DNA of 38,983 nucleotides from NCBI GenBank assembly GCA_027452005.1, contig DAIDHF010000022.1:1-38983 (forward strand), written 5' to 3'. Positions 1 to 27,949 of this stretch are shown piece by piece (positions within the stretch are counted from its first letter, which is position 1; every line of letters starts with the position of its first letter). The translations under genes and the position numbers were made by a program. The notes under the pieces are model-generated. The model was given only the letters and a program-made list of their open reading frames with translations. It ran no database searches and had not been told where the DNA came from. This DNA is from Acidimicrobiales bacterium (lineage in GTDB: Bacteria; Actinomycetota; Acidimicrobiia; Acidimicrobiales; JAKAVM01).

Positions 1-1720
1 TACCGTCTCACCCTGGGACGCACTATTGACCGTCAGTCCCGAGGTCGTACCAGTTATTGTTGGCGTACCTACTGTTATATCGCCGTAACAGACACTTACT
101 TTTGAAGTACCAGTCAAAACAATTGCAGAGGTAACTGTAGTGGTTGAGCAAGCTCCCCCGCTGTAAGGACTAAATGTACCAGTTCCAGAAGTTGAGGTAA
201 GAGTAATAGTTTGATTGGAGGTCGCATTTACCTGGGATCCTCCACTGTCCTCAATCGCGAAAACTATCGGACCTAGGTTCGGTGTTCCTGAAGTAGTGCC
301 CGTAAAGGATGTCGAGGTAATAACTAACTTGTACGGAATCCCGGTTGTAACGGTTTCCACTTGGGTACCGGAAGTTAGCAGACGATCTGAAGCCGTTAGA
401 GTAGGCGTTCCAACAATGTTGTCTCCATAGTAGAATGTTGCGGAGTTGGTACCCCCAGCAATAGTTACAGTCGTAATGGGAGCCCCGCCGCTGGTAAGAG
501 AAAAGATTCCACCGGTAGACGACGAACTCAATGAAATTGTAACCGTAGCTCCGGCCGGGATGTTTTTAGGTGTACCAGCCCCGTTTTCTAGCTTGATTGT
601 AATTGGTCCAATGTCGGCACTTGATGATGCCGGACCCTGTACGGCAGCACTTGTAAATACAATCTGGGTAGCTGTCAAGACGGTTTCACTCTGGTTGACA
701 CTATTTACCGTCAATCCAGATGTCGAAGCGGTTACAGTGTAAACCCCTTGAGTGCCATTCCCATAACAAACCTGGACTGAAGTGGCACTAGTGCCAATAG
801 TCGTGGAGGTAATAGTCGATGACTGGCAAACACCACCACTGTAAAGGCTGAAGCTTCCTCCACCTCCACCATCTGAGAGATTTACGGTCATGGTTGAAGT
901 GGGTTTAGTTGGATTGCCACTAGAATCCTCAATGGCTACGGTTATGGGACCAAGGTTTGGGTTTGTCGCCATAAGAGTCCCGGTAAGTGGACTCGTTGTA
1001 ATCCCAATCTGGTACGGAGACCCTGAATTAATCGTCTCTACCTGGGTTCCGCTAGTAAGAAGCCCTAAGGCCGCGGTTATAGTAGGCGTGCCAGAATTAG
1101 AGTCTCCATAGTAAAACGTTCCAGAAGACTGACCAGCTCCTATCGTGACTGACGTTACCGTTGCCCCACCACTCGACAGGGAGAAAATCCCCCCAGTGGA
1201 AGAACTAGATAGATTTACCGACACCGACACGCCAGCCGGATTTGCCTCTAGGGTCCCACCGGCATTTTCTAGGGATACCGTGATTGGGCCTAGAGTCGCG
1301 CTAGTAGAAGCCAACCCGGTTACTGGGCTCGAAGTTATGACAACCTTGGTAGCGTTCAATACGGTCTCGGTTTGGGTTGCACTGGTGAGCCCCGTGGACG
1401 CAAAAGTTGCCGTGTAGGCACCAGCAGTTGAGTTTCCATAACATAGTTGCGTAGAACTTGTTCCAGCAGGAAGGGAAATGGTCGAAATGGTTATTCCCGA
1501 GCAAGACGTACCGTTCCAACTGGAAAATGTCCCCGATGCTGCCGAGAGAGATATCGAAACCGTGCCACCACCCGAAGGAGGAGCATTCACAGGTGCCCCA
1601 CTTGAATTTTCCATTTCAACTGTTATCGGACCAAGGTTTGGAGACGACGAAGCAGTTCCGATCAACGGAGACGTCGTTACCACGAGCTTGCTGGGAAGGT
1701 TGATAGTCTGATTCTTCTGG
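1..1720 (-). repeat. Tandem ~340-bp coding repeats (five Ig-like units)
   Basis: The same block recurs at the codons for the GPITV motif, with plus-strand anchors at about 1621, 1281, 940, 599 and 262. The spacings are 340, 341, 341 and 337 bases, or about 113 codons each. Each unit opens with a TSP-like segment, then GPITV, then SLSS..G.FS, then a CYGN/YYGD motif and TQ.ETV. The units have diverged in sequence and the array may continue beyond the left edge. Confidence 0.85.
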
Positions 1721-3255
1721 GCAGAAGCTCCTCCGTTGTTTGACATGGTGTGTCCGGTAAAAATCTGAGACGTTGAGGTGTTGCCAGAGTTGGTAACCGT
1801 CAAAGTTACAGTGAAAGGCCCGGTTCCGGCCGAGGAAACCGTTCCAGAAGCACCGCTCGGACAGACTCCACCAGAGGTACTCGGATAGGCAAATGTAGTC
1901 GTGGCCGTGGTTACCGTTTCCGTGCACCCATCACCAAAATTCCACGAGTAATCCTTTATTGTTCCGGTGGGAGTCGACGAAGAACTAGCGTCAAAGTAGC
2001 TATTTACCCCGGCTGGGGCAGGATATGCCAAAAACGATGCCGTGGGTGCCTGATCGGGGGTCATGGCAATTACCCACGGTTCACTCATCCCGGTTTCAAC
2101 GGTTTGTACTGAGTTGCTCGCCGTGCTAACTACGTCGACACCTCCGTTGCCGTAATCGGTTACATAGAGATATTTGGAGTCAGGGGTAAATGCAAAATAA
2201 TCCGGAAATGAAAGGCCGGTGTTGATTTGCTGACTATTGTTTACAGTCGGGGTAATTCCAGCATCCACATTGTCCATGACCTGAATCTCACCGGAAGAGA
2301 AATCGGTTACGTACGCCATACAAGAAGAACTGGTACAGGCAGGTGTAATGTCAACCTGATTCGTCCCGGTTGCGAGTCCACTAGTAATACCCTGGAGGGT
2401 TGGAGCGTGGGGAGGTACGGCTTCAGGATTTTCAATATAAGCTATAGATCCAGCCCCACTACAAGAGAAGTTCCCACAGTTTGCAATAAAGGCATACAAT
2501 CCGTCGGGGGTAAAAGATGTCCAGTCAACTCCAGTCGCGCCTCCGGATGTTGCAGTGAGGGGCGAAAATGGCATCTCGGAATACTGGGCCGTGGTTCCAC
2601 ACTCTGTGGCCGACGCACAGATTATTGAAACAGTACTTCCTCCATAATTTGATACATATGCATATGCCCCATTTGGGGTGATTGCTACGTCAATGGGCGT
2701 ATTCATACTTGCCGTTGCAATATTTGTAATTGCTCCCCACTGAGGTGTTGCTCCGCATCCTGCTGCAGCAATGCAAAATACCGAAACGCTATTATTGCCA
2801 TAGTTTGATACCCATAGCTCAGTCCCATCTGGAGTGACGGAAAGGGCTTGGGGAGTACTTAATCCATTGCCTCGGATTATTTTGATACTTGCGTGAGAAG
2901 CTACGTTACGAACGTATACCCTGTTGTTCCCCTGATCGGCTATAAATGCATAGGTTCCTGTAGGATCAATTGCTGCCCCGAAAGGCTGGTTTCCCATCGC
3001 AACCGTGCCGTCACTTTCACCATTTGTAGAACTGAGTTGGGTATTGTTCACGTAGTCAAACCCAGAAAGGGTAACATCAGCCGAAATTGCCGTCCATGAA
3101 CCACCTGAAGCGTAAGCATCCGGGGCAGATACACTGGAAATGCCAAACAGGGTAAGTAATGCAACTGAAGAACTGAGCACGAGAGTGACCAGAACACTTA
3201 CGTACCGCTTTGTCACCCCAGCAATATTAGAAAAATTATATTTTACAATCCCCAT
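1..3255 (-). CDS. Secreted surface protein: beta-propeller, PKD-like domain and Ig-like repeats (C-terminus beyond window)
   Basis: One minus-strand frame is open from an ATG at 3255 to the window edge, giving at least 1085 residues. An AAGG element lies 8 bases upstream of the ATG. The N-terminus has a basic stretch, a hydrophobic segment (about residues 19-42) and a likely signal-peptidase site after an AYA motif near residue 50. Residues about 55-390 are propeller-type repeats with motifs such as SVTPDGTELWVSNYG and AFTPDSKYLYVTDYG, as in NHL/YVTN-family proteins. A PKD-like segment with WNFGDG follows near residue 430. From about residue 515 there are tandem Ig-like repeats of about 113 residues, each with GPITV and a C/F-YYGD or CYGN motif. 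The protein is probably exported and wall-associated or extracellular. The ligand is unknown. It lies 120 bases downstream of the lasso cyclase on the same strand, but nothing links their functions. Confidence 0.85.
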   Translation of the reverse strand, partial: MGIVKYNFSNIAGVTKRYVSVLVTLVLSSSVALLTLFGISSVSAPDAYASGGSWTAISADVTLSGFDYVNNTQLSSTNGESDGTVAMGNQPFGAAIDPTGTYAFIADQGNNRVYVRNVASHASIKIIRGNGLSTPQALSVTPDGTELWVSNYGNNSVSVFCIAAAGCGATPQWGAITNIATASMNTPIDVAITPNGAYAYVSNYGGSTVSIICASATECGTTAQYSEMPFSPLTATSGGATGVDWTSFTPDGLYAFIANCGNFSCSGAGSIAYIENPEAVPPHAPTLQGITSGLATGTNQVDITPACTSSSCMAYVTDFSSGEIQVMDNVDAGITPTVNNSQQINTGLSFPDYFAFTPDSKYLYVTDYGNGGVDVVSTASNSVQTVETGMSEPWVIAMTPDQAPTASFLAYPAPAGVNSYFDASSSSTPTGTIKDYSWNFGDGCTETVTTATTTFAYPSTSGGVCPSGASGTVSSAGTGPFTVTLTVTNSGNTSTSQIFTGHTMSNNGGASAQKNQTINLPSKLVVTTSPLIGTASSSPNLGPITVEMENSSGAPVNAPPSGGGTVSISLSAASGTFSSWNGTSCSGITISTISLPAGTSSTQLCYGNSTAGAYTATFASTGLTSATQTETVLNATKVVITSSPVTGLASTSATLGPITVSLENAGGTLEANPAGVSVSVNLSSSSTGGIFSLSSGGATVTSVTIGAGQSSGTFYYGDSNSGTPTITAALGLLTSGTQVETINSGSPYQIGITTSPLTGTLMATNPNLGPITVAIEDSSGNPTKPTSTMTVNLSDGGGGGSFSLYSGGVCQSSTITSTTIGTSATSVQVCYGNGTQGVYTVTASTSGLTVNSVNQSETVLTATQIVFTSAAVQGPASSSADIGPITIKLENGAGTPKNIPAGATVTISLSSSSTGGIFSLTSGGAPITTVTIAGGTNSATFYYGDNIVGTPTLTASDRLLTSGTQVETVTTGIPYKLVITSTSFTGTTSGTPNLGPIVFAIEDSGGSQVNATSNQTITLTSTSGTGTFSPYSGGACSTTTVTSAIVLTGTSKVSVCYGDITVGTPTITGTTSGLTVNSASQGETV

Positions 3256-3375: not shown

Positions 3376-5139
3376 TCACCTAGCAAGTGAGTCCCATGAA
3401 TTACCAGCTCTGTGTAGGATTGCAAGTGGAAAGATTTCTGGATAGCCAACCTCCTCTCTGACTTCCCTCCAGTCCTCGGTGAGAACCTCTTGAATGAGCT
3501 GTCCAAAAGGCTTCCCCCACCTAATACTTCCATATTCTGGAATAATATTGGAACCCTTGTCCGGTCTGTACAGGTTCTTATCGGGGACGAGTCCATCTAG
3601 GGCCCCGCGGAGTATCTTTTTGGTACCAGGCCCGACCAATTCGCAAGGGTGACACTGATAGACCAACTCGACAAGTTCCCTGGAAAGAAACGGGAGAACT
3701 CGGCGAAGACCCAATGCCGAGCAGACCTCCCAGCCCATTGAAACCCAGCCTGCTTGGGTCCGCCAGAGCCTCAGAAATGGCCAGGGACCACTCGTGTCAG
3801 CATTGGCTATGTGACGGCTTCGCCACTCGCGATACTCTTGACGGAGATCTTCGGAGAACATTGCCAGTAGCTCCTTCGGCATGTAGATACGGGGGTGGCC
3901 TACCTTCCACATGTATCTCCAGGCCACCCACCTGACAAAGTCTTTTGGCCCGGTTGGCAACCTAGGGATGGATCTGACCAACTCTCTAAACCCTGTTGAG
4001 ATAGCCCAATCTGGGAGGGTTACATATGATCCACAGATCTCGTCAGCGTGCTCACCACTAAAGACGGTCTCAATGATATTCCCCTTGGCTTTTAGATCCT
4101 CGATAAACATGGGGAGGCCGCAAAATACTGAGTGTGGAACCGGAAAGCCTACATCGGGAACCTGCTGGACGAGGTCGATCAACCTGGGCAGGTCTAATCC
4201 ATAGGTAAGCTGGGTTGTAAACGGAACTCTCTCACCGAGATGTTCTACGTAGCCTCTCTCCTTGGCCTCACCGGGGGCTCCGCGTGGAGGGAGCAATGAT
4301 ACCGAGGCCACCTCGAGACCCAACTCATTCACGGCTAGTGCCCCCAGAGATGATGAGTCAACTCCCCCACTCAACGCGAGGAGGTTTGAGTTTTTCTGCG
4401 ACAACCCCGAGGACAAGTTGGCAAGTAGGCATTCTCTTAGAACTACCTGGTGGTCTTTTCGTTTAGCTTCATTGGGTAATTTCCAGTCGGTTGGGACCGG
4501 ATCGAAGTAGGAAACGAATCTCGCCGGTCTTCCGGATCTTATTACCACGGCCTCGCCTGGCTGGATCGTCCTGGCGCCCTTTATAAAGCTCCTGTTATCG
4601 GGCAAAACAGTACAACCCGACGAAAATGCCGCCCAAACTAGAGGGTCAATTTGAGCCCGTGAACCTAGGAAGCTGACCAGGTACGACGCAAGAGTTGAAA
4701 GACAGGTCAGGTTGGAGTCTTGGTATAAGTACAGGGGGGCGAGTCCAGATGCAGATCGCACCCCTACCGACCCCAAAGAGCGATGTGTAGCAAAGTATGT
4801 AAAGTCGCCCGGTATATTACTTAGGCGGCCAGGTGTAGTGATCGATAGGTCAATTACGTCATCCCACGAACCAGGTGTCCCTACCCTCGCTCGGCAACTG
4901 GCTAGCTCGTCATAGCCCTGGGAGATCACGATAAGAGACGACGGGTCAGGTTGAACGGAGATAGAGGTAAGCTCGGTGGAGGCTATCGGTACCGCAAACA
5001 CTTTCCAGTCGTCACACTTGGAGACGATCTGTTGAGCTGGTGCGTGAACTGAGATCCACCTTCCCAGCCTGGCCTCGATTAGATGTTCAATCTCTGGGTC
5101 TAAGGCGCGAAATGCGAAAAAGTTAGCGAGAGGTTTCAT
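3376..5139 (-). CDS. Lasso peptide isopeptide synthetase (lasso cyclase, protein C)
   Basis: This 587-residue protein has the asparagine-synthetase fold used by lasso cyclases (McjC/LarC type). Such enzymes adenylate the ring Asp or Glu side chain and close the macrolactam on the core's N-terminal amine. The C-terminal domain carries the ATP-pyrophosphatase motif SGGVDSS at residues 257-263 and a second acidic motif, SGEHADEICG, near 364-373. The N-terminal domain (about 1-220) is glutaminase-like, but the protein starts MKPLAN and lacks the catalytic Cys2, so glutamine hydrolysis is not expected. That fits a cyclase rather than ordinary AsnB; compare the true AsnB at 32886, which starts MCGIAG. 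The gene lies 82 bases downstream of the lasso precursor on the same strand. No clear ribosome binding site precedes the ATG at 5139. Confidence 0.9.
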   Translation of the reverse strand: MKPLANFFAFRALDPEIEHLIEARLGRWISVHAPAQQIVSKCDDWKVFAVPIASTELTSISVQPDPSSLIVISQGYDELASCRARVGTPGSWDDVIDLSITTPGRLSNIPGDFTYFATHRSLGSVGVRSASGLAPLYLYQDSNLTCLSTLASYLVSFLGSRAQIDPLVWAAFSSGCTVLPDNRSFIKGARTIQPGEAVVIRSGRPARFVSYFDPVPTDWKLPNEAKRKDHQVVLRECLLANLSSGLSQKNSNLLALSGGVDSSSLGALAVNELGLEVASVSLLPPRGAPGEAKERGYVEHLGERVPFTTQLTYGLDLPRLIDLVQQVPDVGFPVPHSVFCGLPMFIEDLKAKGNIIETVFSGEHADEICGSYVTLPDWAISTGFRELVRSIPRLPTGPKDFVRWVAWRYMWKVGHPRIYMPKELLAMFSEDLRQEYREWRSRHIANADTSGPWPFLRLWRTQAGWVSMGWEVCSALGLRRVLPFLSRELVELVYQCHPCELVGPGTKKILRGALDGLVPDKNLYRPDKGSNIIPEYGSIRWGKPFGQLIQEVLTEDWREVREEVGYPEIFPLAILHRAGNSWDSLAR

Positions 5140-5158
5140 TGAGATACTAGATGAATAA

Positions 5159-5174
5159 CTACCGTTCCCGGTAG
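5159..5174 (-). promoter_or_regulatory. GNRA-tetraloop hairpin between lasso precursor and cyclase
   Basis: On the minus-strand transcript CUACCG-GGAA-CGGUAG forms a perfect 6-bp stem closed by a GGAA loop, which fits the GNRA tetraloop rule. It sits in the 82-base gap between the precursor stop (5222) and the cyclase ATG (5139). Intergenic hairpins after the precursor gene occur in other lasso operons, where they are thought to stabilise precursor mRNA or limit read-through into the enzyme genes. No U-tract follows, so a simple terminator is unlikely. Confidence 0.5.
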
Positions 5175-5221
5175 ATCTCTTGCGACCTTAGGTGGCTTGT
5201 TGTACGCCTTAGGCTCCGCGG

Positions 5222-5410
5222 TTACTTGCTAACCCCAGATCCGTTGTCAATAAAGCCTCGCCCTTTTCGGCCCTGGGTCATTTCAAGAACTGTCCCGAGT
5301 TCAACTGTCTCAGGTGGCTCATAGCCAGCTTTGGGCACGGCTCGTTCTTTGTTGACCCCCGAGTTGGTTGCCTCCCGAGAACCACTACCGTCCGGGCGCG
5401 ATGAACTCAA
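5222..5410 (-). CDS. Lasso peptide precursor (protein A), predicted core GRKGRGFIDNGSGVSK
   Basis: This is a 62-residue precursor. Its leader carries YEPPETVELGTVLEMTQG, which fits the lasso consensus Y-x2-P-x-L-x3-G-x5-T-x-G at every spacing; only the Leu position differs (Thr). Cleavage after T(-2)-Q(-1) gives a 16-residue core from Gly1 to Lys16 (bases 5225-5272). Asp9 (codon 5246-5248) is the only acidic core residue, so a Gly1-Asp9 nine-member ring is predicted. The core is strongly basic (Arg2, Lys3, Arg5, Lys16) and has Ser at 12 and 15. The start is TTG at 5410, with AAGGA 4 bases upstream. An in-frame stop lies further upstream and there is no ATG. An internal GTG at about codon 25 would still leave a leader of about 22 residues. 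The gene precedes the cyclase and diverges from the other lasso genes. Confidence 0.9.
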   Translation of the reverse strand: MSSSRPDGSGSREATNSGVNKERAVPKAGYEPPETVELGTVLEMTQGRKGRGFIDNGSGVSK

Positions 5411-5688
5411 GGTTTCCTTCGATTCGCTAAGTTTTCTAAAAACACGTTAAAAACATTCGACACCTACGCAAGAGACGGTTGCATATTATGCGATAACTAA
5501 CAATATAGCTTATCTGATGCTCGCCCTTCGTAAGCATCGCTCAATGAACCTAATGTAAAATCGGATCGTGATCCCGGGAGATTTAGCAATTTGTGAGTTT
5601 TATTCATGCACTGGGATCTTCTGACCATGCCGGGAGTCCAAAGACCGTTGGAAGGCAGATTTACCTTGCCTTATAGGACACACAAAAA
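5411..5688. promoter_or_regulatory. Divergent intergenic region of the lasso cluster
   Basis: These 278 bases separate the precursor/cyclase unit from the B1-B2-kinase unit and must contain promoters for both directions. Two inverted repeats are visible. One is the perfect 11-base palindrome GCATATTATGC at 5481-5491, which overlaps a TAATAT that could serve as a -10 for the precursor. The other is GATGCT/AGCATC at 5516-5521 and 5533-5538. They could be operator or RNA structures. I could not assign a convincing -35/-10 pair in either direction. Confidence 0.35.
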
Positions 5689-5958
5689 TTGACCTACCAG
5701 CTCAATGAGAAGGTCGTGTTTGAGGAAGTCGATGGAGAGGTCGTCATACTCAACTTGACTTCTGGCATATATTACCAACTGAATAGGAGTGCGACGGTTA
5801 TCTGGAAGGGTACCTTGGCCAACGAACCTGCCAGGGCAATCGAGGAAAAACTCAACCAGGCCTTTGAGATTCAAGAGTGCGATGTTCAAGGCGACATGAG
5901 GCGGTCTGTGGAGGATTGGATCTCTAAGGGCCTCATCAGTCAGGTGGAGGACGGGTAG
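5689..5958 (+). CDS. PqqD-family lasso leader-recognition protein (B1, RRE)
   Basis: The 89-residue protein is a complete PqqD-like RiPP recognition element. It has the beta-strand core FEEVDGEVVILNLTSGIYYQLN, then SATVIW and a helical half ending in WISKGLISQVED. In lasso pathways discrete B1 proteins bind the leader, especially the conserved Tyr and Pro, and present it to B2. The precursor upstream has the matching YxxP motif. The start is TTG at 5689, with AGGA about 10 bases upstream; an in-frame TAG at 5674 excludes a longer form. A separate B1, rather than a B1-B2 fusion, is typical of Gram-positive lasso clusters. Confidence 0.88.
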   Translation: MTYQLNEKVVFEEVDGEVVILNLTSGIYYQLNRSATVIWKGTLANEPARAIEEKLNQAFEIQECDVQGDMRRSVEDWISKGLISQVEDG

Positions 5959-6004
5959 CATTCTACGACCAAAACGCATCCCCCGGACGTCTTTCACGCG
6001 CGCC

Positions 6005-6445
6005 TTGCAGGTTTATCGGATCGCCCGACTGGCTCTTGATGGACTGTATGTGGAGTTTTGGCTTCGCGCTGTTAGCCTTCCCACTGCTGCTCGAAGGCTG
6101 GGGGTATTGGTTGAACAGGTCGACCAAACCAATAAGCCCATGAATCGAGATCCAAATCTGAGCTCCAAAAGCCAAGATCTTGAGATCTTGATCGGAGATA
6201 TATCAGCCTTGATGATACGGTGGCCATTTGGCGACACCTGTCTAAGGAGAAGTTTACTATTTGCTCGACGGACCAAGGGGTACTCCCCGAAAGTCATATT
6301 CGGGGTAGCAAGTCGGGGCGGAAAAATTGTCGGGCACGCCTGGGTAGAACACGACTTAGGAACGTACCTCTATAACGAACTTGCCGACGACGACATTGTT
6401 CGGTTACATGGCCACGGATTCACCCGACAGAGCGGAGATATGTGA
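6005..6445 (+). CDS. Lasso leader peptidase (B2, transglutaminase-like cysteine protease)
   Basis: This 146-residue protein matches the discrete B2 family in length and motifs. The catalytic cysteine is expected in GDTCLRRSLLFARR (Cys79) and the catalytic histidine in VGHAWVEHD (His111), with an Asp shortly after. The enzyme removes the leader after the conserved Thr-x so that Gly1 is free for cyclisation. The start is uncertain. TTG at 6005 is the only conventional start in the open stretch after B1, and only a weak GGACG lies upstream. The frame stays open toward B1, so a rarer upstream start is possible. The stop overlaps the next gene's GTG by 4 bases, which suggests translational coupling. 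Confidence 0.85.
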   Translation: MQVYRIARLALDGLYVEFWLRAVSLPTAARRLGVLVEQVDQTNKPMNRDPNLSSKSQDLEILIGDISALMIRWPFGDTCLRRSLLFARRTKGYSPKVIFGVASRGGKIVGHAWVEHDLGTYLYNELADDDIVRLHGHGFTRQSGDM

Positions 6446-7470
6446 GTTCTAAGCTGTCGGACGTGGAGGAGATTACGACTGAACGACGCCAAGTCTATTG
6501 GGTCCACGGGATGGAGCTGACCAGCAATATAGCCCTTGACGCTAGGGGTCCGGGGACCGGTGAGATCCCCATACATGAGCTATCAGTAACGGCTCTTTCA
6601 GGTCAAAGGTTGCAAGATGATCAACTACCAAGTCACCATTTACTGTCGTGGGTTGACTCGGACAGTCATTCAGTCCATCAGGGCAAGCGGCTAATAAGCA
6701 CCTACAGTCACCCGGGGGGATATCTGATGCGCTATCACGACCTGTGTGATGTAAAAGTTGACGGAGATCTCAGCCGGGTATGCGTGATATTTGAACCTTG
6801 TCAGGCCCTAGGATTGATCTCTACAATTATTGGGACTGGGGTGTGCGGACTTGTGGCAACTCTTGCCGGGGCAAGATCCAAGAAGACGATTACCCTTCAC
6901 GCAAGTGCTGTGTCCTATGGCGAACACGCCGTGGCCTTTGTGGGGCCATCGGGGTCTTATAAGTCTACGTGTGCGGCCCTAGCATGTTCTAGTGGGGCGA
7001 GTCTTGTTACCGACGACACGTTAGTGCTCGATATATCGGCCGGTCGTGTTCGTACTTTCCCTGGGACGCGCTCGACACGGCTAAGGAGAGAGCGGGAGTC
7101 TCAAATAGTGCTAGATCGAGTCTCGTCTATAACCGAGTCACCAGACGACCGAGACGTGGTCCGATTTGTTGAGGATGAGAACTGGGCTATCCGTAAGGAA
7201 ATTCCTCTAAAGGCCATCGTGCTCACGGAACTCTCTACCTTTGAAGGAGTGAACCAGATAGGGGGTGCTTTACGTTGGCTGGCTGAATCCGAAACCTTAG
7301 TTTCAGATCTCAGAATCTGGCCACTGACCCGAGTAACTGGTTCCCAATCTCTAATTGGCCTAGTGAAGAACTCTCGGGTGGGCCTGCACGGCATTGACGA
7401 GGTGGCACAACAACAACTAGTTGGATGTCGGATCATTACAGATAGTGTTCCGGTATTCCAGCTAGGTTAG
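6442..7470 (+). CDS. HPr-kinase-like lasso peptide kinase
   Basis: The 342-residue protein resembles the HprK-type kinases found in lasso clusters, such as the paeninodin kinase that phosphorylates the precursor's C-terminal Ser. The P-loop is GPSGSYKS at residues 168-175 (Lys174), after a strand ending HAVAFV. TDDTLVLDIS follows about 20 residues later, as expected for the metal-binding part of the HprK fold. The N-terminal 150 residues are less conserved and may bind the leader or core. GTG at 6442 overlaps the B2 stop by 4 bases and has GGAG upstream. This context argues for peptide tailoring rather than carbon-catabolite control, since no HPr/PTS gene is present. The target residue is unproven: the core ends in Lys with Ser at 12 and 15. 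Confidence 0.8.
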   Translation: MSSKLSDVEEITTERRQVYWVHGMELTSNIALDARGPGTGEIPIHELSVTALSGQRLQDDQLPSHHLLSWVDSDSHSVHQGKRLISTYSHPGGYLMRYHDLCDVKVDGDLSRVCVIFEPCQALGLISTIIGTGVCGLVATLAGARSKKTITLHASAVSYGEHAVAFVGPSGSYKSTCAALACSSGASLVTDDTLVLDISAGRVRTFPGTRSTRLRRERESQIVLDRVSSITESPDDRDVVRFVEDENWAIRKEIPLKAIVLTELSTFEGVNQIGGALRWLAESETLVSDLRIWPLTRVTGSQSLIGLVKNSRVGLHGIDEVAQQQLVGCRIITDSVPVFQLG

Positions 7471-7478
7471 ACACTACC

Positions 7479-8522
7479 GTGGAACGCATCTTCTCGACCA
7501 CACTTCCGGAGGCCTTGTTGGCAGAGGCGCACATGCTCGAGTGTGTCTCGGCGTTAGAGAACTCGGGAGTTAGGTGTTGTGTGATTAAAGGAATTCCTCT
7601 GGCTCGCCAGTTATACGGGCAGGTTCACGGGCGCGGCATACCGGCTGACTGCGATATCTTGGTGGCTAGAAAGGATGTAATCAGAGCGGTCGATACATTG
7701 ATCTCTATCGGGTACTCCTCTCCGTATCTGCCAGCTTCTAAAGAGTTATTTGGTCGGGTCTGGAAGGTGGTAATGCGAAGAGCCAGTTCAGACGGGTCCA
7801 CGTCAACCCTAGAGATACACCTGGCCCCTTTTTCCCCTTGGGCTCACCCGATTTCCGAAAACCTAGTCTGGAGCCATATTGTTGAAGATACCTCATTTGA
7901 CCACCCAATATGGGTTCCGGATCATGAACTCAATCTGGTCTTGCTGGCATGCCACTTTGCTCAATCAGGATTTGCGAGTCCAAAGATCTTGCGAGACTTT
8001 CACGTGGCCTGGGCACTTTGGTCTAACGAGATTGACCCACTTGAGTTACTCGCTCTGATCCATGCTAGTCGGGCAAGACTTCAAGTAGTTGGTATGTTTC
8101 GGACTACTCCACACCTTGACCTAGAAAGCAGTGAACTTCTAGATAATGGTCCTACCCACAACCAGACTCGTACTTTTGAGCAGGTAAGCTGGGGGTTTGG
8201 ATTTCCTAGACTCAACGCAGTACTAAAATATTTCCCGACACGCAATAAGATGCAAATAGATTCAGAACCGGACTACATAGGTCAGTTACTAGCCTTACTA
8301 ATCATGCCACCCAAATGCTTCTTCTCTCAGGTCACCTCACACCTTTTCCCATCTCGATTAGCCCTGGCAATCATCAATGATGAGCCAGTTCAGCCACTAC
8401 CCCGTTATCTTACAAAATCGGCAAATCGACTTGGGGCAGTTGGCAAGGCATTGATTGAAAGCATTGGCATGCCCTTGAGTGCACGCGTTACTTGTGAATC
8501 CTTATTAGAACGAGAGATGTAG
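7479..8522 (+). CDS. Lasso-cluster nucleotidyltransferase-family protein
   Basis: The 347-residue protein has the nucleotidyltransferase-fold signature of the family often annotated as uncharacterised nucleotidyltransferase (NTP_transf_5 type). VIKGIPLARQLYG (Lys37-Gly38) is followed by PADCDILV with Asp57 and Asp59 as likely metal ligands. Homologous genes accompany kinases in lasso clusters; in pseudomycoidin the equivalent PsmN adds hexose to the phosphorylated peptide. GTG at 7479 lies 8 bases after the kinase stop, so both belong to one operon. The substrate here is inferred only from context. Confidence 0.75.
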   Translation: MERIFSTTLPEALLAEAHMLECVSALENSGVRCCVIKGIPLARQLYGQVHGRGIPADCDILVARKDVIRAVDTLISIGYSSPYLPASKELFGRVWKVVMRRASSDGSTSTLEIHLAPFSPWAHPISENLVWSHIVEDTSFDHPIWVPDHELNLVLLACHFAQSGFASPKILRDFHVAWALWSNEIDPLELLALIHASRARLQVVGMFRTTPHLDLESSELLDNGPTHNQTRTFEQVSWGFGFPRLNAVLKYFPTRNKMQIDSEPDYIGQLLALLIMPPKCFFSQVTSHLFPSRLALAIINDEPVQPLPRYLTKSANRLGAVGKALIESIGMPLSARVTCESLLEREM

Positions 8523-9497
8523 ATGAGTAAAGACCACCGCGAGTTTTCAGTTGAACCATATAGCAAGAACAGTGATAAAGATAGCTGGGATGAATTTGTA
8601 AGAAGTTCTTGTAACGGGACGTTCCTACATTCTCAAAAGTTTCTCTCCTATCACGGAGATAGATTTGAGGACTATTCATTTGTGTGCCGAGATGGCATCG
8701 GGACAGTTCGGGCAGTATTTCCTGCTGCCAAAGACTTAGCCGAAATAGGAACTATTACAAGCCATCCAGGATCTTCATTTGGAGGGCTGATCCATGACAG
8801 GACAGTAGTTGGGTTACAAGTTGTTGAAATTATAGAGCAACTGGTTGGTGTGTATCGCAAACTCGGATTCGAGAAATTAATTTACAAATCCGTACCATGG
8901 ATATTTCACAACCAGGTAACCGCTGATTGCGACTATGCTCTTCAACTACTCGGGGCTATTCGTAGGTCGGTCGCCCTTTCTGCCTGCCTCGACATTGGAG
9001 CACAGCGAACCGTGACCAAGGGAAGGAAATATTCTTTGAGCCTTGCTAAACGAAATAATCTCTTGGTGGATTGGGGTAATCTACACCTATCTAATTATTG
9101 GGACCTTTTAGAGACCACTCTGCTTGACCGACACAATTCCCATCCTGTTCATTCAAGAGATGAAATTGAATCACTCCTGGGGCTTTTTCCGGAAGAGATT
9201 TTTCTCTGTACAAGTTGGAAAGATAATGAGCTTCTGTCCGGAATCGTCTTATTTCTAGAAAACTCAACATTGCATCTGCAGTATTCGGCAACAAGCGATG
9301 CAGGCCTAAAGCAAGGTGCAAACGACTTAGCTCTTGAATCGGCTTTTCAAAGAGCAAAGGAACTAAACTGTAAGTGGTTTAATTTCGGCCATTCAATTGA
9401 TCCGGCTACCCAATCACTAAACTCAGGTCTGTACGAATTCAAGCGATCGTTTGGTGCTGGGAGTATTTCTTATGAAATATATGAGATTTCACTTTAG
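8523..9497 (+). CDS. FemAB/GNAT-like acyltransferase
   Basis: This 324-residue protein looks like a two-lobed FemAB-type GNAT enzyme of the kind found in polysaccharide and PEP-CTERM loci. The N-terminal lobe contains GTFLHSQKFLSYHGDRFEDY and a conserved HPGSSFGGL stretch (about residues 80-88). The second lobe ends with LQYSATSDAGLKQGANDLALESAF and the terminal FKRSFGAG motif typical of the family. Such proteins transfer amino-acyl or acyl groups. The ATG directly follows the TAG of the lasso nucleotidyltransferase, so it is probably co-transcribed. It may be an additional lasso tailoring enzyme or the first gene of the neighbouring glycan region; its AT-rich codon use is closer to the glycan genes. 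Confidence 0.65.
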   Translation: MSKDHREFSVEPYSKNSDKDSWDEFVRSSCNGTFLHSQKFLSYHGDRFEDYSFVCRDGIGTVRAVFPAAKDLAEIGTITSHPGSSFGGLIHDRTVVGLQVVEIIEQLVGVYRKLGFEKLIYKSVPWIFHNQVTADCDYALQLLGAIRRSVALSACLDIGAQRTVTKGRKYSLSLAKRNNLLVDWGNLHLSNYWDLLETTLLDRHNSHPVHSRDEIESLLGLFPEEIFLCTSWKDNELLSGIVLFLENSTLHLQYSATSDAGLKQGANDLALESAFQRAKELNCKWFNFGHSIDPATQSLNSGLYEFKRSFGAGSISYEIYEISL

Positions 9498-13116: not shown

Positions 13117-13964
13117 ATGCGCGCGCTCGACCCCGAAGTGGGAGATGCTGTCTGGGCAGCCATCTCACCCCTGATTCCTCCGCCGGACCGGACCCATCCG
13201 CTTTGATACCATTGACCGAGAGCATCCAATCGAGACTGCTTCGGTGGCATGCTCGTGCGTCTGGCGACGGGGTGCTCGTGGGAGGACGCCGAGCGCCTAT
13301 GTGGTCACAAAGTGTCGGACACCACGATGCGGGCACGCCGGGATGAGTGAATTGCAGTAGGAGTCTTCGACGCCTTGTCCGCCGAGGCGCTGTTTGCCTA
13401 CGACAAGATCATCGGCCTCGATCTGTCCGATCTGTCCGTCGACGGCTCCTGGCACAAAAGTCCTGCTGGAGGTGAGGGAACCGGCCCGAACCCGACCGAT
13501 CGGGGCAAGCTCGGGTGGAAGTGGTTGATCCTCACCGACCTCGATGGCATCCCCTTGGGCGATGCCATCGACGGAGCCAATCGCAACGACTCGGTGATGC
13601 TTGCACCCACCCTCGACGACGCCAACGCGAAGGGACTACTCCTCGATATCGAGACTATCTTGCTCGACCGCGACTATGGCTCCGACGTGACCAGGGAGTA
13701 CCTTGCCGAAAGCAACATCGACGACACTGTCATCGCGAAGAAGAGAAAACAGGGTGCTGGCGCGCCGAAGAAAAACCAACCGATGGGACTGCGTTGGCCC
13801 GGTCGAGCGGACCAACTCGTGGCTCTCCAACTACGGTCAGCTCCGCAGGAACACAGACCATCCACCGCCTCGCTCAGATCTCACTCGCCATCGTGTTCAT
13901 TCTCACGGCCAAGCTGATCGATTGGCGGAATCGCTGGTCACCGGCACCGTCACCTATCCGCTGA
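13117..13964 (+). pseudogene. Decayed IS5-family transposase
   Basis: A single frame from ATG 13117 reads as an IS5-type transposase. The N-terminus has PLIPPPDRTHPL, then GGMLVRLATGCSWEDAERL. The DDE core follows with IIGLDLSDLSVDGSWHKS and EGTGPNPTDRGKLGWKW. The frame is broken by TGA codons at 13204-13206, 13213-13215 and 13348-13350. Near 13797 it shifts into the frame reading VERTNSWLSNYGQLRRNTD, and near 13855 it shifts again to IHRLAQISLAIVFILTAKLIDWRNRW, ending at 13964. At least five lesions make it inactive. Its GC content is clearly above that of the flanking glycan genes, which points to transfer from a higher-GC background. Confidence 0.88.
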
Positions 13965-15822: not shown

Positions 15823-16561
15823 ATGAATGTGGGTGCCCTCCGGAGAAGATCAGCCCGAATACGACCTAGTTCCAGCTCCCCGGGGCAGGTAGCAGCTGGC
15901 TCCAAGTCGCCCTCAAGGCTCTCCGCTTCCGCTACGACCGCAAGCGGTGGCCCTTCAGGCTGGCCTCATGCACTCGACAGCTATGAGGCTAGCGACGATG
16001 ATCTAGAGCGAATGGTGAGGAACCCCAAACGCACTGATGCTGACCGCAATCTAAAACAAGAGCGCCAATCCCTTGCTTGAAGCCCAAGCTCATGAGGGTA
16101 GACAGTCGCTCAAAGGCCAACGCCGGTCGAAAGAAACCCTTCAAGTCTTTGCCAACGCTGCAACAAAGATCAAGCAACTGGAAGTTGCTCGCAGCCAGAT
16201 CCCGCCGAAAGTCACACTGGCCGAAGTTCACCCAGACGCCAAACGACTCAATGGAGAGCGCAAGCGTCTCTTCGACGCTATCCGAATGGCTACCTACAAT
16301 GCAGAATCATCACTGGCTCGGATGGTCACACCTCACTACTGCCGAGCTGAAGACGAGGCCAGGACGCTACTTCGAGAAGCCTTCAGGTCTTCAGCCGACC
16401 TCCGGGTGATGGGTAGAGAATTCCACGTCACTATCGGACCCTTGTCATCTCCTCGACGGACTCGGGCGATCGAGGACCTTTGCACAGAACTCAACGCCAC
16501 TCGGACCATCTACCCGGGGACTGAACTAACACTTGTTTACTCAACCAAACCCCAGAGGTGA
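15823..16561 (+). pseudogene. Transposase-like gene remnant
   Basis: The second half, about 16073-16561, reads as the C-terminal end of a transposase-like protein often annotated putative transposase in actinobacteria. It has a coiled region, then RMATYNAESSLARMV and a conserved tail with GPLSSPRRTRAIEDLCTELNAT and a PGTELTLVYS end. The segment before it is in a different frame (through NLKQERQSLA, ending at 16080), so a frameshift lies near 16075. No recognisable catalytic or DNA-binding N-terminus remains. GC content is higher than in the neighbouring glycan genes. Confidence 0.6.
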
Positions 16562-16564
16562 CCC

Positions 16565-17645
16565 CTAAATAATAATCGCACTATGTAAGGAGTCCTGGAA
16601 TCCTTCTTTTGTCCTAAAACCCCTGGCTGCGACTTTGATTGCCTGAATACGAGAATTGATACCCTCAGCTCCAGTGCTGGTGAGGCGATGATCAAAGAAG
16701 TTGAGGATCCCCGTACGGTGGTTCTTGATCATTTTGGCTACTTTCTTTACCGGCTCAAGACGAGACCTGATAGCCCAAGAGTACCAGCTCTCGAAATATT
16801 CCTTGGCCTAGGCCTTGGACTTGTAGGTCCAAAGGTTCCGAAGCATTTCTTTAATCATCCAGGCTCGTGCAGTCTTGTTGACGAGGCTTCGGGTTAGATC
16901 AAAGCTTGCCTTCTTGTCCTCTGGAATCTTCTCCTCGTTGAAGAGCCAGAGATACTTGGATCTAGTTAGTGTACAGTAGCCTTCTCTTAAAAGGAGACGA
17001 TGCTCTTGTTTGCGAACTTCGTTGACAGCGTCGACCATGTGCTTTGCAATGTGGAACCTATCAAGGACGATCTTGGATTCAGGGTCTGGGAGGATTGACC
17101 TAACTGACAGAGAGAACGGCTCGCACATATCCATGCAAACCGCTTCAATGGGTGACTTGTCCTCCTGTGTCTGAGATCTAAAATAGGCATCCAGGCTGGA
17201 CTGTTTCCTATCGTCTTGGAGGTCAAGCACAATCCCTTTTTCGAGGTCACTTACAACAGTGAAGTAACTGTGCCCTTTCTTAGGCTTTCTCATCGACTCC
17301 GATATGGGCAGCCATGGTTGTCTTGCGTCTAAGAAGCCCCCTCGTCACTGCCCGTTCCATTATGTGGTGGGCTTCATCAAAGGACAATTCGAGAATCTCG
17401 GCCGCCTTGGTCTGGTTGCACCGCTCAAGTACGTCAATTGCAAAACGTTCAAAGAGCATCGTGAAGCGGGCATGGGGCTCGGCCCACGGGACCTGGACTT
17501 GGAGCACTCCATGTGTTGCACAGTCAACCCTCGGAATCGAGGCGTGGACGATTGTCTGGAGCTGACAGGTGTCTAGGTGTCGCCAGGACCGTTGTTTGGT
17601 GTGGTCGTTCACCGAGAGAAGTTCACCACATTCGGGGCAAGACAT
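16565..17645 (-). pseudogene. Decayed ISL3-family (IS204/IS1001/IS1096/IS1165) transposase
   Basis: The N-terminal part (17645-17280) begins MSCPECGELLSVNDHTKQRSW, a zinc-ribbon start, and has the ISL3 HTH-like region ending AAHIGVDEKA. A frameshift near 17285 moves to KKGHSYFTVVSDL, continuing through CMDMCEPF and KIVLDRFHIAKHMVDAVNEVRKQE, which are classic ISL3 DDE-domain motifs. An in-frame TAG at 16805-16807 then interrupts the protein; the frame resumes as AKEYFESWYSW and ends with GAEGINSRIQAIKVAARGFR before a TAG at 16565-16567. Two lesions in an otherwise well preserved gene suggest recent inactivation. No matching terminal inverted repeats were found by eye. Confidence 0.88.
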
Positions 17646-21831: not shown

Positions 21832-23064
21832 TTGATCGCCCCAGTTGGATTATCCGGGAAGGCTAGCGATATCCGTAAAATTTTCTACATCTCCTACGAC
21901 GGACTTCTCGACCCTTTAGGTCAGTCTCAAATCCTACCTATTGTAACTGGCATTGCAGACTCGAAAACCGATGTGCACTTGATCACCTTTGAAAAGCCTG
22001 AACGATGGGCTCAAACACAAGAGCGATACCTAACTGCAGCTCAACTGACTACTCACAACATTTCTTGGATTCCGCTTCGCTACCACAAACGGCTTAGCTT
22101 ACTTGCGACTCTCTGGGATCTCCTTCGACTAGGTTTAGTGTTGCTCAAATTCGCTATACGAGGCGAAATTGATCTAATACATTGTCGATCGTACCCACCA
22201 ACCTTAGTAGCGCTTTGTTTCAAAAAGCTCTTTCGTATTCGTTATATCTTTGACATGAGAGCTCTATACTGTGACGAAAGAGTTGATTCGGGGCTTTGGA
22301 TGGCCTCGTCAATCTCCTATCGTATTGCAAAATTCTGTGAGCGAAAGATGCTCGTCAACGCCCATAAAATCGTAACGCTAACAGAGGCAAGTATTCCTGT
22401 GATTCAAGAGATAGCTCACCAAGATAATACATTGAGTCCGATAGTAATTCCAACAACGGTACCCCTTGATAAATTTGTTCCACGCTTTGAAATAGGTCAC
22501 GATTTCCCAGTGTTGGCATACTTTGGCTCTTATGGTGGAGGATATCTAATTGAGGAAATCATCAAGTTCGGGTTAGTGTTCCTAAAAGAGATTCACAATT
22601 CCAAATTATTGTTTCTCATCAACAATATGAATTCTCATTTGATTACCGACACTTTCGATAGACTCACAGGTAATTCAAACTTAGAGCGAAATAGAGTTGA
22701 GGTAGATTCCGTACCTTATGTCGACATCCCCAATCGTCTTTCTGGAGCTCTGGCAACTATTTCATTTGTCAATCCTACGCCTTCCAGGGTAGCAATGGCC
22801 CCTACCAAAGTCTCTGAGTCACTTTCCCTTGGAATGCCTGTGATCGTAAATGCTGGAATTGGCGATTTAGTCGAAATCGTAAATTCGTCCAAGGTTGGAA
22901 TTGTGAGTAGTCCATTTAGTCGAAATAACTGGACCACAGATGTTCACTCAATCTATACGCTTGGAACTTCCAAAGAGTGCAGGATTAGATGTCGAAAAGT
23001 TGCAGAAACCCTATTTTCGGCTGACAGTGCCGTCAACAAGTACCTTGAGCTCTATAACTCCTAA
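21832..23064 (+). CDS. Family 4 (GT-B) glycosyltransferase
   Basis: The 410-residue protein begins with IFYISYDGLLDPLGQSQILP and contains IHCRSYPPTLVAL, FDMRALYCDERVDSG and a C-terminal lobe with APTKVSESLSLGMPVIVNAGIGDLVE, a GT4 nucleotide-sugar-binding region. Enzymes with this DPLGQSQ start are common in capsule and exopolysaccharide loci. TTG at 21832 is the nearest start to the upstream boundary, without a strong ribosome binding site; translation could begin somewhat later. It is the first gene of the plus-strand unit with the exporter. Confidence 0.85.
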   Translation: MIAPVGLSGKASDIRKIFYISYDGLLDPLGQSQILPIVTGIADSKTDVHLITFEKPERWAQTQERYLTAAQLTTHNISWIPLRYHKRLSLLATLWDLLRLGLVLLKFAIRGEIDLIHCRSYPPTLVALCFKKLFRIRYIFDMRALYCDERVDSGLWMASSISYRIAKFCERKMLVNAHKIVTLTEASIPVIQEIAHQDNTLSPIVIPTTVPLDKFVPRFEIGHDFPVLAYFGSYGGGYLIEEIIKFGLVFLKEIHNSKLLFLINNMNSHLITDTFDRLTGNSNLERNRVEVDSVPYVDIPNRLSGALATISFVNPTPSRVAMAPTKVSESLSLGMPVIVNAGIGDLVEIVNSSKVGIVSSPFSRNNWTTDVHSIYTLGTSKECRIRCRKVAETLFSADSAVNKYLELYNS

Positions 23065-25264: not shown

Positions 25265-26440
25265 TTGATACTTCAACTTTTATATAGGTATCTTCGAAAA
25301 TTCTTGATCGCAAAGTCCATTATATTTTCAATAATCCGAACGCACTTTTTTTGTCGTGATAATCCAGTCTTAGACGCAAACTATTTACGTAGCCTAGAAA
25401 CCCCACGGATTCTGGTAACGATACATGGTTTGATTGGTGATTCAGTGATGTCGTTACCACTCCTGGAATCAATTTCTAGTGTCTTACCAGATGCAAAGTT
25501 ATTTATTATCTGCAATCCTACCAACCAAGCATTTTTTGAGTCCTCACCTAATGTGATGGATAATTATGTTATATCTGGATCACCACTTTCTCTTCGCGAG
25601 TCACGGCAAGTTGCAGTTCTTCGTTCCTGGATAAGGAAATGTAAATTTGACGCAGCCTTTATCGCGCTAGGCAATGATCTTGCCAGCTTGCCTGAAATAC
25701 AACGGATTCCTCTCACGGTTGGCGTCAAGGAAGATAGCCAGTCAAGCATGCTAACAAAGTCATACTCGATTGGTACTCCTAGGACCTGGAGAAGCGCCGA
25801 GCGACTTGGAGCTCTACGATCTGTGGGATTTTCAGTAAGTACTACAACTCCTCATATCACTCCGAACTCATCACACTTGGATTCTCTTTTTACCAAAATA
25901 TCAGCAATAGGTCTAGACACCAACAACGTAGTAGTCGTTCATCCCTTTGGGAGCACAGTAGCACAGCATTGGCCCGTCGAGAATGTAAAACAATTTGTTT
26001 TACTGTGCCTTGGTAACACCAACTTACATATCGCGATTCTTGGAGGACCAAGCCATACAAGCTTAACTATTATGGATCGCAAAGTCCCTAATTTAGATGA
26101 TCGATTATTCGACTTGCGGGGTATTCTAGAGCTTGGTGAGACAGTTGAATTGATTCGACAATCCAAAATACTTGTAAGCACCGATAGCGGCCCAATGCAT
26201 ATCGGCATTGCCCTAGATACCCTTACCATTGGTCTGTTCCGCTCCGTTCGTCCAGAACATGCATGGCAAGGTGACGCACTAATTCCCCACTTTGGTAAAT
26301 CTCAACGATGCGAAGGTCGATGCACGTGGGATCGATGCTACTGGTCACCTTGCGAACAGATGGCTTCCATTTCCGCCACTTCTGTATTTGATCAATTGAA
26401 CTCGCTGCTTGGCTCTAGTCGAGGTGAATTTGAAAACTAA
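25265..26440 (+). CDS. Family 9 glycosyltransferase (heptosyltransferase-like)
   Basis: This 391-residue GT-B protein follows the WaaC/WaaF/RfaF pattern. TIHGLIGDSVMSLPLLESI is the N-terminal acceptor-side motif (usually GxxGDxxxxxP), VVVHPFGSTVAQHWPVENVKQFV starts the donor lobe, and LVSTDSGPMHIGIALDTLTIGLF is the donor-binding signature. It probably transfers a heptose or related sugar. The next two genes encode the heptose-activating functions, a strong contextual support. TTG at 25265 starts 8 bases after the Wzt stop. The first 35 residues are hydrophobic and could associate with the membrane. Confidence 0.85.
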   Translation: MILQLLYRYLRKFLIAKSIIFSIIRTHFFCRDNPVLDANYLRSLETPRILVTIHGLIGDSVMSLPLLESISSVLPDAKLFIICNPTNQAFFESSPNVMDNYVISGSPLSLRESRQVAVLRSWIRKCKFDAAFIALGNDLASLPEIQRIPLTVGVKEDSQSSMLTKSYSIGTPRTWRSAERLGALRSVGFSVSTTTPHITPNSSHLDSLFTKISAIGLDTNNVVVVHPFGSTVAQHWPVENVKQFVLLCLGNTNLHIAILGGPSHTSLTIMDRKVPNLDDRLFDLRGILELGETVELIRQSKILVSTDSGPMHIGIALDTLTIGLFRSVRPEHAWQGDALIPHFGKSQRCEGRCTWDRCYWSPCEQMASISATSVFDQLNSLLGSSRGEFEN

Positions 26441-26933
26441 TTGCAAGACCAAATTGATATCTGAAGATGAGGCCAAGTTGAAGCGACAACAAGTCGCCGA
26501 ACTAGGTCAAGTACTGGTCTGGACGAATGGATGTTTTGACGTTCTCCATGCTGGTCATGTAGATTTTCTAAGTAAAGCTTCTGAACTCGGGGACGTACTA
26601 ATCGTTGGCCTTAATTCCGACCACAGCGTTAGTTCGCTAAAGGGCAATGGACGTCCAATCTTTACATTTGAGCAACGAGCAACCGTGTTGGCTAGCCTTG
26701 CTGTAGTTGATTTTGTGATTGAACAAGCTGACAATACTCCAAGCAGAATCCTGGGACTCTTGCAACCGGATATTTCTTGCAAAGGGGCGGACTATAGACC
26801 TCCGAGTGGAAAGCCAATTCCAGAAGCTTCTGTTATCGAACAATATGGTGGACAGCTGATCTTTATTGACCTGATGGATGGACTATCTAGTTCATCCATT
26901 ATAGATCGATTGAAATTAATCGGTTTAGACTGA
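26424..26933 (+). CDS. D-glycero-beta-D-manno-heptose 1-phosphate nucleotidyltransferase (HldE C-domain/HldC type)
   Basis: The protein of about 170 residues has the cytidylyltransferase-fold signature WTNGCFDVLHAGHVDFL, with HAGH as the HxGH nucleotide-binding motif. It continues with GLNSDHSVSSLKG and the conserved ending KGADYR followed by IIDRL. It matches the adenylyltransferase half of HldE in length. It would activate heptose-1-phosphate, most often with ATP to give ADP-heptose. A GTG at 26424 with GAGG upstream is preferred; an in-frame TTG lies at 26409. The start overlaps the GT9 gene, so the two are coupled. Confidence 0.88.
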   Translation: MNLKTNCKTKLISEDEAKLKRQQVAELGQVLVWTNGCFDVLHAGHVDFLSKASELGDVLIVGLNSDHSVSSLKGNGRPIFTFEQRATVLASLAVVDFVIEQADNTPSRILGLLQPDISCKGADYRPPSGKPIPEASVIEQYGGQLIFIDLMDGLSSSSIIDRLKLIGLD

Positions 26934-26941
26934 ACTATCCA

Positions 26942-27949
26942 ATGAATAAACAGCTCTTGGCTCAGTCAGCAATTGACAAATTCAAATCGGACGGTTCCTC
27001 CAAAAGAGTATTAGTCATTGGAGATTCAATGCTTGACTCTTTTATGGAAGTCGAAAATACGCGCACCTCTCCTGAGGCTAATTGTAAAGTCTACGGTGTC
27101 GGCCAAGCAAGATATTATCCTGGAGGCGCTGCAAATGCGGCAATGAATCTATCCAAACTAGGGCTCCGAGTCGAGCTAGTATCGATTCTAGGTGAAGATG
27201 CTAACTCAATTATCCTTTCGGATTTATTGACCACGGCCAATGTATCTTGCAAGTTCTTTTTTGATCCACAACGTCCAACTACAGTGAAAACTCGCGTAAT
27301 CGAGAAGGGTTCACATCTGCTTAGAATCGACGTAGAGTTGTGCGAAAGTATTGAGACTAAATTTGAAGATGAACTTCTTTCATACGTTGTAGAGTCAATA
27401 CAACATTACGATGCACTATTGTTGTCAGATTACGCAAAAGGTTTACTAACTCCCCGGGTTACAACAAAGCTAATTGAATCAGCAATATCTTTCGGAATAC
27501 CCGTGGTGGTCGATCCAAAGGGCTCCGACTTCTCAAAGTATCAACACGCCCAACTGATTACCCCAAATTTGAAGGAGCTCGGTACAGCAACTGGTATTGG
27601 CATTGACGATACTTCTAGCATTCTTCAGGCTATAGCACTTCTTACGGATAATCTAGGATCGAACACATCCATTTTGCTAACAAAAGGTGCTCAGGGAATG
27701 ACGTTATTCACAAATAGTCACGAACCATTAGAAATTGAAGCTATTAAGTGTGAAAATCCAGATGTCACCGGTGCAGGCGACTGCGTGGCCGCGGTTATGG
27801 TGGCAGCAATCGCCTTAGAGCTTTTACCTGAAATGGGCGCCACGTTGGCAAATCTTGCAGCAGGCTTTTGCGTGTCGCGAGCCAACACATACTCTATAGA
27901 GATAGATGACATTTCCCGATTTTTTGACAGTTTGCACCCTACCCTTTAG
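26942..27949 (+). CDS. D-glycero-beta-D-manno-heptose-7-phosphate kinase (HldE N-domain/HldA type, PfkB fold)
   Basis: The 335-residue ribokinase-like protein has VLVIGDSMLDSF at the N-terminus, ARYYPGGAANAAMNLSKLG as the first PfkB signature, LLLSDYAKGLL, VVDPKGSDFSKY and the catalytic PDVTGAGDCVAAVM near the C-terminus. These closely follow the kinase half of HldE (RfaE1). The product, heptose-1,7-bisphosphate, would need a phosphatase (GmhB), and sedoheptulose-7-P isomerisation needs GmhA; neither is in the window. The gene follows the nucleotidyltransferase by 8 bases, giving a split pair in the order transferase-kinase. Confidence 0.88.
   Translation: MNKQLLAQSAIDKFKSDGSSKRVLVIGDSMLDSFMEVENTRTSPEANCKVYGVGQARYYPGGAANAAMNLSKLGLRVELVSILGEDANSIILSDLLTTANVSCKFFFDPQRPTTVKTRVIEKGSHLLRIDVELCESIETKFEDELLSYVVESIQHYDALLLSDYAKGLLTPRVTTKLIESAISFGIPVVVDPKGSDFSKYQHAQLITPNLKELGTATGIGIDDTSSILQAIALLTDNLGSNTSILLTKGAQGMTLFTNSHEPLEIEAIKCENPDVTGAGDCVAAVMVAAIALELLPEMGATLANLAAGFCVSRANTYSIEIDDISRFFDSLHPTL

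Follow-up and report, generated by a model that had tools for sequence, protein, structure and literature searches.

The 38,983-bp stretch of DNA analysed here (the window), which is one whole contig (G000:C22) of the 3.2-Mb genome of an Acidimicrobiales bacterium assembled in 195 contigs, carries at positions 3376-8522 a lasso peptide cluster that comprises genes for a precursor peptide A, a macrolactam cyclase C, a leader-binding protein B1, a leader peptidase B2, an HPrK-like kinase and a nucleotidyltransferase of the NTP_transf_5 family. As suggested by our sequence analysis, this cluster probably makes a peptide with a Gly1-Asp9 ring, with the kinase most likely phosphorylating Ser15 and the NTP_transf_5 protein extending the phosphate. 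All six genes located in the first-pass annotation were found again at the same positions (Table 1). Genes A and C, in this order, occupy the minus strand, and B1, B2, kinase and nucleotidyltransferase diverge from them on the plus strand. The predicted peptide, conserved and amenable to testing, is a new addition to a known kind of lasso peptide, comes from an uncultivated actinobacterial lineage and has an unusual tail.

The leader motif Y-x2-P-x5-G-x5-T-x-[GASC] was encountered once in the six frames of the window, compared with 0.067 occurrences per window expected by chance in 60 first-order Markov resamplings, and the motif followed by a core of 12-30 residues with an acid at positions 7-9 did not arise in any of these resamplings. 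The precursor joins both features, and the fit of its leader described in the first-pass annotation is borne out. The sequence GAAGGAAACC precedes the TTG start of the precursor gene. The core has a single acidic residue, Asp9, so that the ring is most naturally predicted as a Gly1-Asp9 macrolactam; the earlier assignment of this ring remains the best reading as a prediction. Within the core, the predicted ring contains Lys3 and is devoid of hydroxyl residues, both serines (Ser12 and Ser15) belong to the tail, and Lys16 is terminal. The tail NGSGVSK lacks Phe, Trp, Tyr, His and Arg, and its longest side chain is that of Lys16. The penultimate position of Ser and the absence of a bulky lock residue had been overlooked previously, as had the glycan genes that flank the cluster.

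Conservation in related genomes provides stronger evidence for the precursor. A cyclase of this kind (E ≤ 1e-20) was detected in four of 198 related genomes, the window's own included, and the cyclases of the three others are 53% (G001, same genus), 40% (G002, same family) and 31% (G080, same order) identical to that of the window; in G003 (same family, 81% complete) no such cyclase was found. The precursor of G001 lies in the same place and its core is identical at 16 of 16 residues. At the DNA level, 7 of the 48 core nucleotides are changed, spread over 6 of the 16 codons; every change, including a TCT/AGT serine switch, is synonymous. In the adjoining part of the leader only 11 of 19 residues are identical and 20 of 57 nucleotides are changed. 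The precursor call is validated by this same-genus core, which is identical with only synonymous changes, and the substitution pattern indicates that the precursor is under selection. That the core is unchanged in two genomes with cyclases that share little more than half of their residues points to a specific function under selection. In G002, YVPPMIETLGNVLTLTMR is followed by the core GKGNPSHSDLGNGASK in a 16-residue register, with Gly1, Asp9 and a tail of the form xGxGxSK. Hence, Ser is penultimate and Lys is last in the cores of the window, G001 and G002. For the more distant G080, the precursor was delimited by visual reading of a longer open frame and did not come from the motif scan. 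The precursors of G002 (L007 3156-3320) and G080 (L008 11249-11884, 3' part) have the leader Thr at -3 if a nine-residue ring is assumed, which may point to a shift in the cleavage register.

The maturation proteins agree with those expected for lasso peptides, and the three families named for them in the first-pass annotation were recovered by profile searches (Table 1). The cyclase is an asparagine-synthetase-like enzyme with Lys instead of the glutaminase Cys at residue 2, and it carries the SGGxDSS motif in the form SGGVDSS, which is invariant in the aligned relatives. Its AlphaFold model (predicted local distance difference test, pLDDT, 78) matches AsnB (1ct9), TsnB9, beta-lactam synthetase and carbapenam synthetase. 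The nearest solved chains of the PqqD-like B1, found with phmmer, are the leader-binding proteins TbiB1 (E 0.0012) and TfuB1 (E 0.0027). The Cys/His leader peptidase B2, whose true start is probably near 6005 (TTG), retains Cys95 and His127, both of which are invariant in four sequences.

The kinase has no Pfam match and scores 25 bits with TIGR04352, for which the cut-off is 200. Its AlphaFold model (pLDDT 82, six sequences) matches phosphoenolpyruvate (PEP) carboxykinases best (E 1.4e-7, template modelling (TM) score 0.50 by query length) and HPr kinases more weakly (best E 1.0e-4, TM about 0.25); by this model, the protein belongs to the expected PEP carboxykinase/HPr kinase superfamily, in agreement with its earlier designation as a kinase. 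H153, K174, D191 and D192, corresponding to the His-Lys-Asp-Asp set reported for the paeninodin kinase PadeK (PMC9266682), are invariant in both kinase alignments. The window kinase also has, at corresponding distances, the residues that matter in BsfK (H153, G168, K174, S175, D191 and D192). The BsfK glycine directly before the Lys is Tyr in the window and in G001, and exchange of this glycine for Ala is reported as harmless (PMC10368454). PadeK and PsmK are described as acting on a C-terminal Ser (PMC9266682, PMC8498205). The reported target of BsfK is core Ser3 (PMC10368454), so that kinases of this kind can act elsewhere than on the last residue. Hydroxyl residues are found at Ser12 and Ser15 in the window and at Ser6, Ser8 and Ser15 in G002, and the G080 core has a single one, the tail Ser. 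Ser15 is the only Ser, Thr or Tyr position common to the cores of the window, G001 and G002, and for this reason we infer it as the phosphorylation site. At two loci with HPrK-like kinases outside the group of related clusters described below (L072 766-1279 and L052 3235-3414), precursors end in ...DLTFSG, also with a penultimate Ser. The nucleotidyltransferase named in the first-pass annotation matches its family (Table 1); a nucleotidyltransferase stands beside the kinase in the window, as in pseudomycoidin-type clusters, and aligned proteins are encoded in G002 and G080. Knock-out of the pseudomycoidin nucleotidyltransferase PsmN is reported to abolish the hexoses on that peptide (PMC9266682, PMC8498205).

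The route that we infer, from leader cleavage through ring, threading, phosphorylation site and added group to activity, would run as follows. By analogy with established lasso biochemistry, B1 would bind the leader and B2 would cut after Gln(-1), and C would then adenylate Asp9 and join it to the Gly1 amine, closing a macrolactam of nine residues that presumably encircles the tail NGSGVSK. Either ahead of ring formation or in the course of it, the HPrK-like kinase would most likely phosphorylate Ser15, and the NTP_transf_5 protein would add to the phosphate in the manner of PsmK and PsmN in pseudomycoidin. Gene spacing is compatible with joint expression of the plus-strand genes. The B2 and kinase genes overlap by 4 bases, 8 bases separate the kinase from the nucleotidyltransferase, and a FemAB/GNAT-like gene begins at the first base past the nucleotidyltransferase stop. 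Because its start directly abuts that stop, the FemAB/GNAT-like gene may be an operon member, and a single operon from B1 through FemAB is plausible. The product of this gene could modify the peptide (e.g., at Lys) or be part of the glycan locus. Neither promoter-like sites (4 against 6.7 expected) nor terminator-like sites (5 against 6.2 expected) exceeded chance in the window, and no lasso exporter gene was found among the cluster genes of the window.

Profile searches over the collected loci brought the number of distinct clusters encoding a closely related cyclase to 11: those of the window, G001, G002 and G080 and loci L011, L012, L013, L014, L015, L113 and L121. Taxa given in the record titles are Actinomycetes (contigs of G001 and G002), Acidobacteria, Chloroflexi, Methylomirabilota, Proteobacteria and Solirubrobacterales. 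L095, a second copy of the L011 locus, was dropped from the counts, and L014, split in two cyclase frames, was counted once; as this clade was picked by cyclase profile score, its tree support of 100/100 is partly circular. The 12,489-bp contig shared by L011 (record titled Acidobacteria) and L095 (G517, placed in the window's phylum) shows a disagreement between title and placement. The kinase hidden Markov model matched in all 11 clusters. The His-Lys-Asp-Asp set is present in nine of them, the window included; in L015 the Lys is replaced by Arg, and the L014 frame covers just the C-terminal half. Nucleotidyltransferase matches were found in 5/11 clusters, and contig ends restrict several clusters. 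Precursors were found in ten, and the 4.3-kb contig of L013 yielded no convincing one. In the nine distinct tails of these precursors, two patterns recur: Phe, Trp, Tyr, His and Arg are all missing from eight (P 2.5e-5), and eight carry a Ser among the final four residues (P 6e-4). Both P values were calculated against the composition of four window proteins and, the rows being related, serve as guides only; for these statistics the window and G001 count once, L013 is omitted and the ring acid is assumed for cores with more than one acid. Widening the search at a cyclase profile threshold of E ≤ 1e-60 returned only G517 itself among the 5 genomes of its class, and G839 itself together with G1065 among 259 genomes of its class, G1065 resembling the L015 record in position and frame length. 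This cyclase type is rare in the genomes searched. Lasso B2 genes as such are not rare, as they occur in 21 of 395 genomes of the class, in 45 of 396 of the phylum and, at E ≤ 0.01, in 28 of the 198 relatives, 18 of these over the cut-off. Two arrangements within the clade are peculiar: in L012 (9974-14678, record titled Chloroflexi) a GT4 glycosyltransferase gene directly follows the precursor and is succeeded by a second kinase and an NTP_transf_5 gene, and in L011 (2381-3700) an Ig-like open reading frame (ORF; Big_1, below cut-off) with a signal-like start lies between B2 and B1.

A number of findings weigh against the proposed route. Cyclase C scores below the cut-offs of NF033535 (13 of 525 bits) and NF033561 (44 of 300), models that stand for lasso cyclase subfamilies and not for the class as a whole. 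Around the clusters of the window, G001 and G002, no exporter resembling the G080 one was found, although the contigs of G001 and G002 are short. The core ends in Lys, with Ser penultimate, so the rule of a C-terminal Ser, which marks paeninodin-type substrates, fails here, and Ser12 may instead be the target of the kinase. In G002, the leader Thr is at -3 and not -2 if Gly is residue 1. Many lasso B2 loci that do not belong to the clade also have HPrK-like kinases, so that the presence of a kinase alone is not special. Finally, the G001 kinase is adjoined by a molybdopterin oxidoreductase gene and has no nucleotidyltransferase beside it. Since G001 has the identical core, the nucleotidyltransferase may not be essential for the peptide, and its step may be optional or performed elsewhere. 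The last observation also fits a plain lasso peptide whose neighbouring kinase and nucleotidyltransferase act on something else, e.g., surface glycan precursors, as do the glycan genes adjoining the cluster and the lack of a C-terminal Ser in the precursor. We consider this explanation unlikely, given that the kinase accompanies every distinct cluster of the clade, is fused to B2 in G001 (one 492-aa polypeptide) and, in the window, begins before the B2 stop, and that nearly all distinct tails keep a Ser near the end. A decayed cluster or a chance-ORF precursor, to which the TTG start and the promoter-like sites at chance level could be attributed, is highly improbable in view of the exact leader motif, the purely synonymous divergence of the core, and enzyme frames that are open with their motifs kept.

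The tails raise the question of how these peptides would hold their thread, since most of them lack the bulky residues that reviews name as the usual stabiliser of threaded peptides (PMC13352647, PMC8498205). The product might accordingly be a macrolactam of the branched-cyclic type, or its ring might be threaded loosely and become locked only once the kinase and nucleotidyltransferase have enlarged Ser15, as the slim tail of the window and its counterparts in the clade would allow; this appears improbable to us, because Lys16 or Val14 could suffice as locks, ring residues matter too and G001 has no nucleotidyltransferase next to its cluster. It is more doubtful still that the tails are generally too slim to lock a nine-residue ring and that the kinase, with a nucleotidyltransferase or glycosyltransferase where present, builds a stopper on the conserved tail Ser as a mechanical lock and not a decoration, the finished peptide perhaps being tied to the cell-surface glycan of the adjoining genes. 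The possibly sufficient size of Lys16 and the gene content of G001 speak against such a lock as well. The Ser-Lys terminus and the slim tails bear on which residues lasso kinases choose and on whether a modification can be a lock.

Table 1. Coordinates of the lasso peptide genes and adjacent features in the window.
Feature	Positions	Strand	Evidence
Large, secreted-looking protein with beta-propeller/PKD repeats, truncated by the contig end; downstream of C	3..3255	-	PF10282, PF18911
C: lasso macrolactam cyclase, asparagine-synthetase fold, no Cys2	3376..5139	-	PF00733 E 6.2e-13
A: 62-aa precursor peptide, TTG start	5222..5410	-	exact leader motif; identical core in G001
Leader peptide, 46 aa	5273..5410	-	Y, P, G and T invariant in nine aligned precursors
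Predicted core GRKGRGFIDNGSGVSK, 16 residues	5225..5272	-	Gly1 5270-5272, Asp9 5246-5248, Ser15 5228-5230
B1: PqqD-like leader-binding protein	5689..5958	+	PF05402 E 5.8e-9, above cut-off
B2: leader peptidase	5957..6445 (open frame)	+	PF13471 E 1.3e-8; NF033537 43.1 bits (cut-off 33)
HPrK/PEPCK-fold kinase, overlapping the B2 stop	6442..7470	+	conserved residues; fold; fused to B2 in G001
NTP_transf_5 nucleotidyltransferase-like protein	7479..8522	+	PF14907 E 5.7e-20; 42% identical in G002
FemAB/GNAT-like protein, possible operon member	8523..9497	+	PF13480 E 4.7e-6; TIGR03019 E 6e-13, under its cut-off

Past position 8523, the window contains a series of surface-glycan genes (10433-37799) coding for a DegT aminotransferase, a sulfotransferase, a GT2, a Glycos_transf_4 protein, a GT4 and an ABC-2 type exporter subunit, along with FdtA, TylF, GT9 and a hexapeptide transferase. 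A true asparagine synthetase with a glutaminase domain is encoded in the same region. A split HldE-like pair is also present in the window (cytidylyltransferase at 26409-26933, PfkB kinase at 26942-27949), and transposase pieces (DDE_Tnp_1, Transposase_29 and ISL3) are interspersed among the glycan genes at 13375-13917, 16073-16561 and 16808-17293. In G001, a GT4 gene overlaps the end of C, and its product shares 41% identity with the GT4 encoded at 21832 of the window. The G080 cluster is surrounded by glycosyltransferase-like genes, and further neighbours there are presumably Wzc- and CapD-like, labels that we assigned from sequence. Using single-sequence profiles of window and G080 genes and Pfam on 10 selected ORFs, with L113 and L121 left out, glycan matches were obtained around the clade loci of the window, G001 (one GT4), G080 and L012 (one GT4), and none around L007, L011, L013, L014 and L015. 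An association with glycan genes as a clade-specific trait is not supported, as matches also occurred at some outside loci, e.g., L043, L068, L071, L076 and L078; the glycan genes are local context only. On the other side of the cluster, the propeller/PKD protein has a 43% identical, 2002-aa counterpart in the same place in G002 and none there in G001, and from gene order it is a syntenic neighbour in the window and G002. A shared secreted Ig/propeller partner of the clusters was considered and rejected, G001 having a glycosyltransferase at this place and the Ig-like ORF of L011 showing no significant BLASTP similarity to the propeller/PKD protein.

The claim of a new core in the first-pass annotation holds within the material searched: the core string was found in no main text of the literature covered, tables of predicted cores in supplements lying outside that search, and the precursor had no match at E ≤ 0.1 among PLSDB plasmids. 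Among 397 genomes of the order, only those of the window and G001 carry the precursor, and a third match (G022, E 0.008) spans residues 3-45 and not the core. Large collections of comparable data have been described, including 7,414 predicted lasso cores in a catalogue of extreme-environment genomes (PMC13219616) and acid-mine-drainage genomes mined for gene clusters (PMC9734747).

Among the closest known systems, the pseudomycoidin cluster (psm) of Bacillus pseudomycoides is described as likewise combining lasso genes with an HPrK-like kinase and a nucleotidyltransferase (PMC9266682, PMC8498205). The window, from a different phylum, departs from it in a core that ends in Lys with Ser penultimate, in the absence of an exporter gene and in the divergence of A-C from the B1-B2-kinase-nucleotidyltransferase genes. 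Paeninodin (pade) shares the HPrK-like precursor kinase with its His-Lys-Asp-Asp motif (PMC9266682); its kinase recognises a terminal Ser, whereas the window peptide terminates in Lys and its cluster adds a nucleotidyltransferase. The best-scoring lasso cyclase model for C is that of albusnodin/ikarugamycin-type cyclases (NF033561), of which C is not a member by the cut-off of that model. The Bsf cluster of Bradymonas sediminis has the K and N genes in common with the window, and the reported target of its kinase is not the C-terminal residue (PMC10368454); related Bradymonadales clusters are described there as being without N or D. In Bsf the target Ser3 belongs to an eight-residue ring and Ile occupies leader position -2 of BsfA, whereas the window has Lys3 in a predicted nine-residue ring free of hydroxyl residues and Thr at -2. 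Judged by gene content, the cluster works like the pseudomycoidin and Bsf systems, and by its C-terminus the peptide is not a paeninodin-type substrate.

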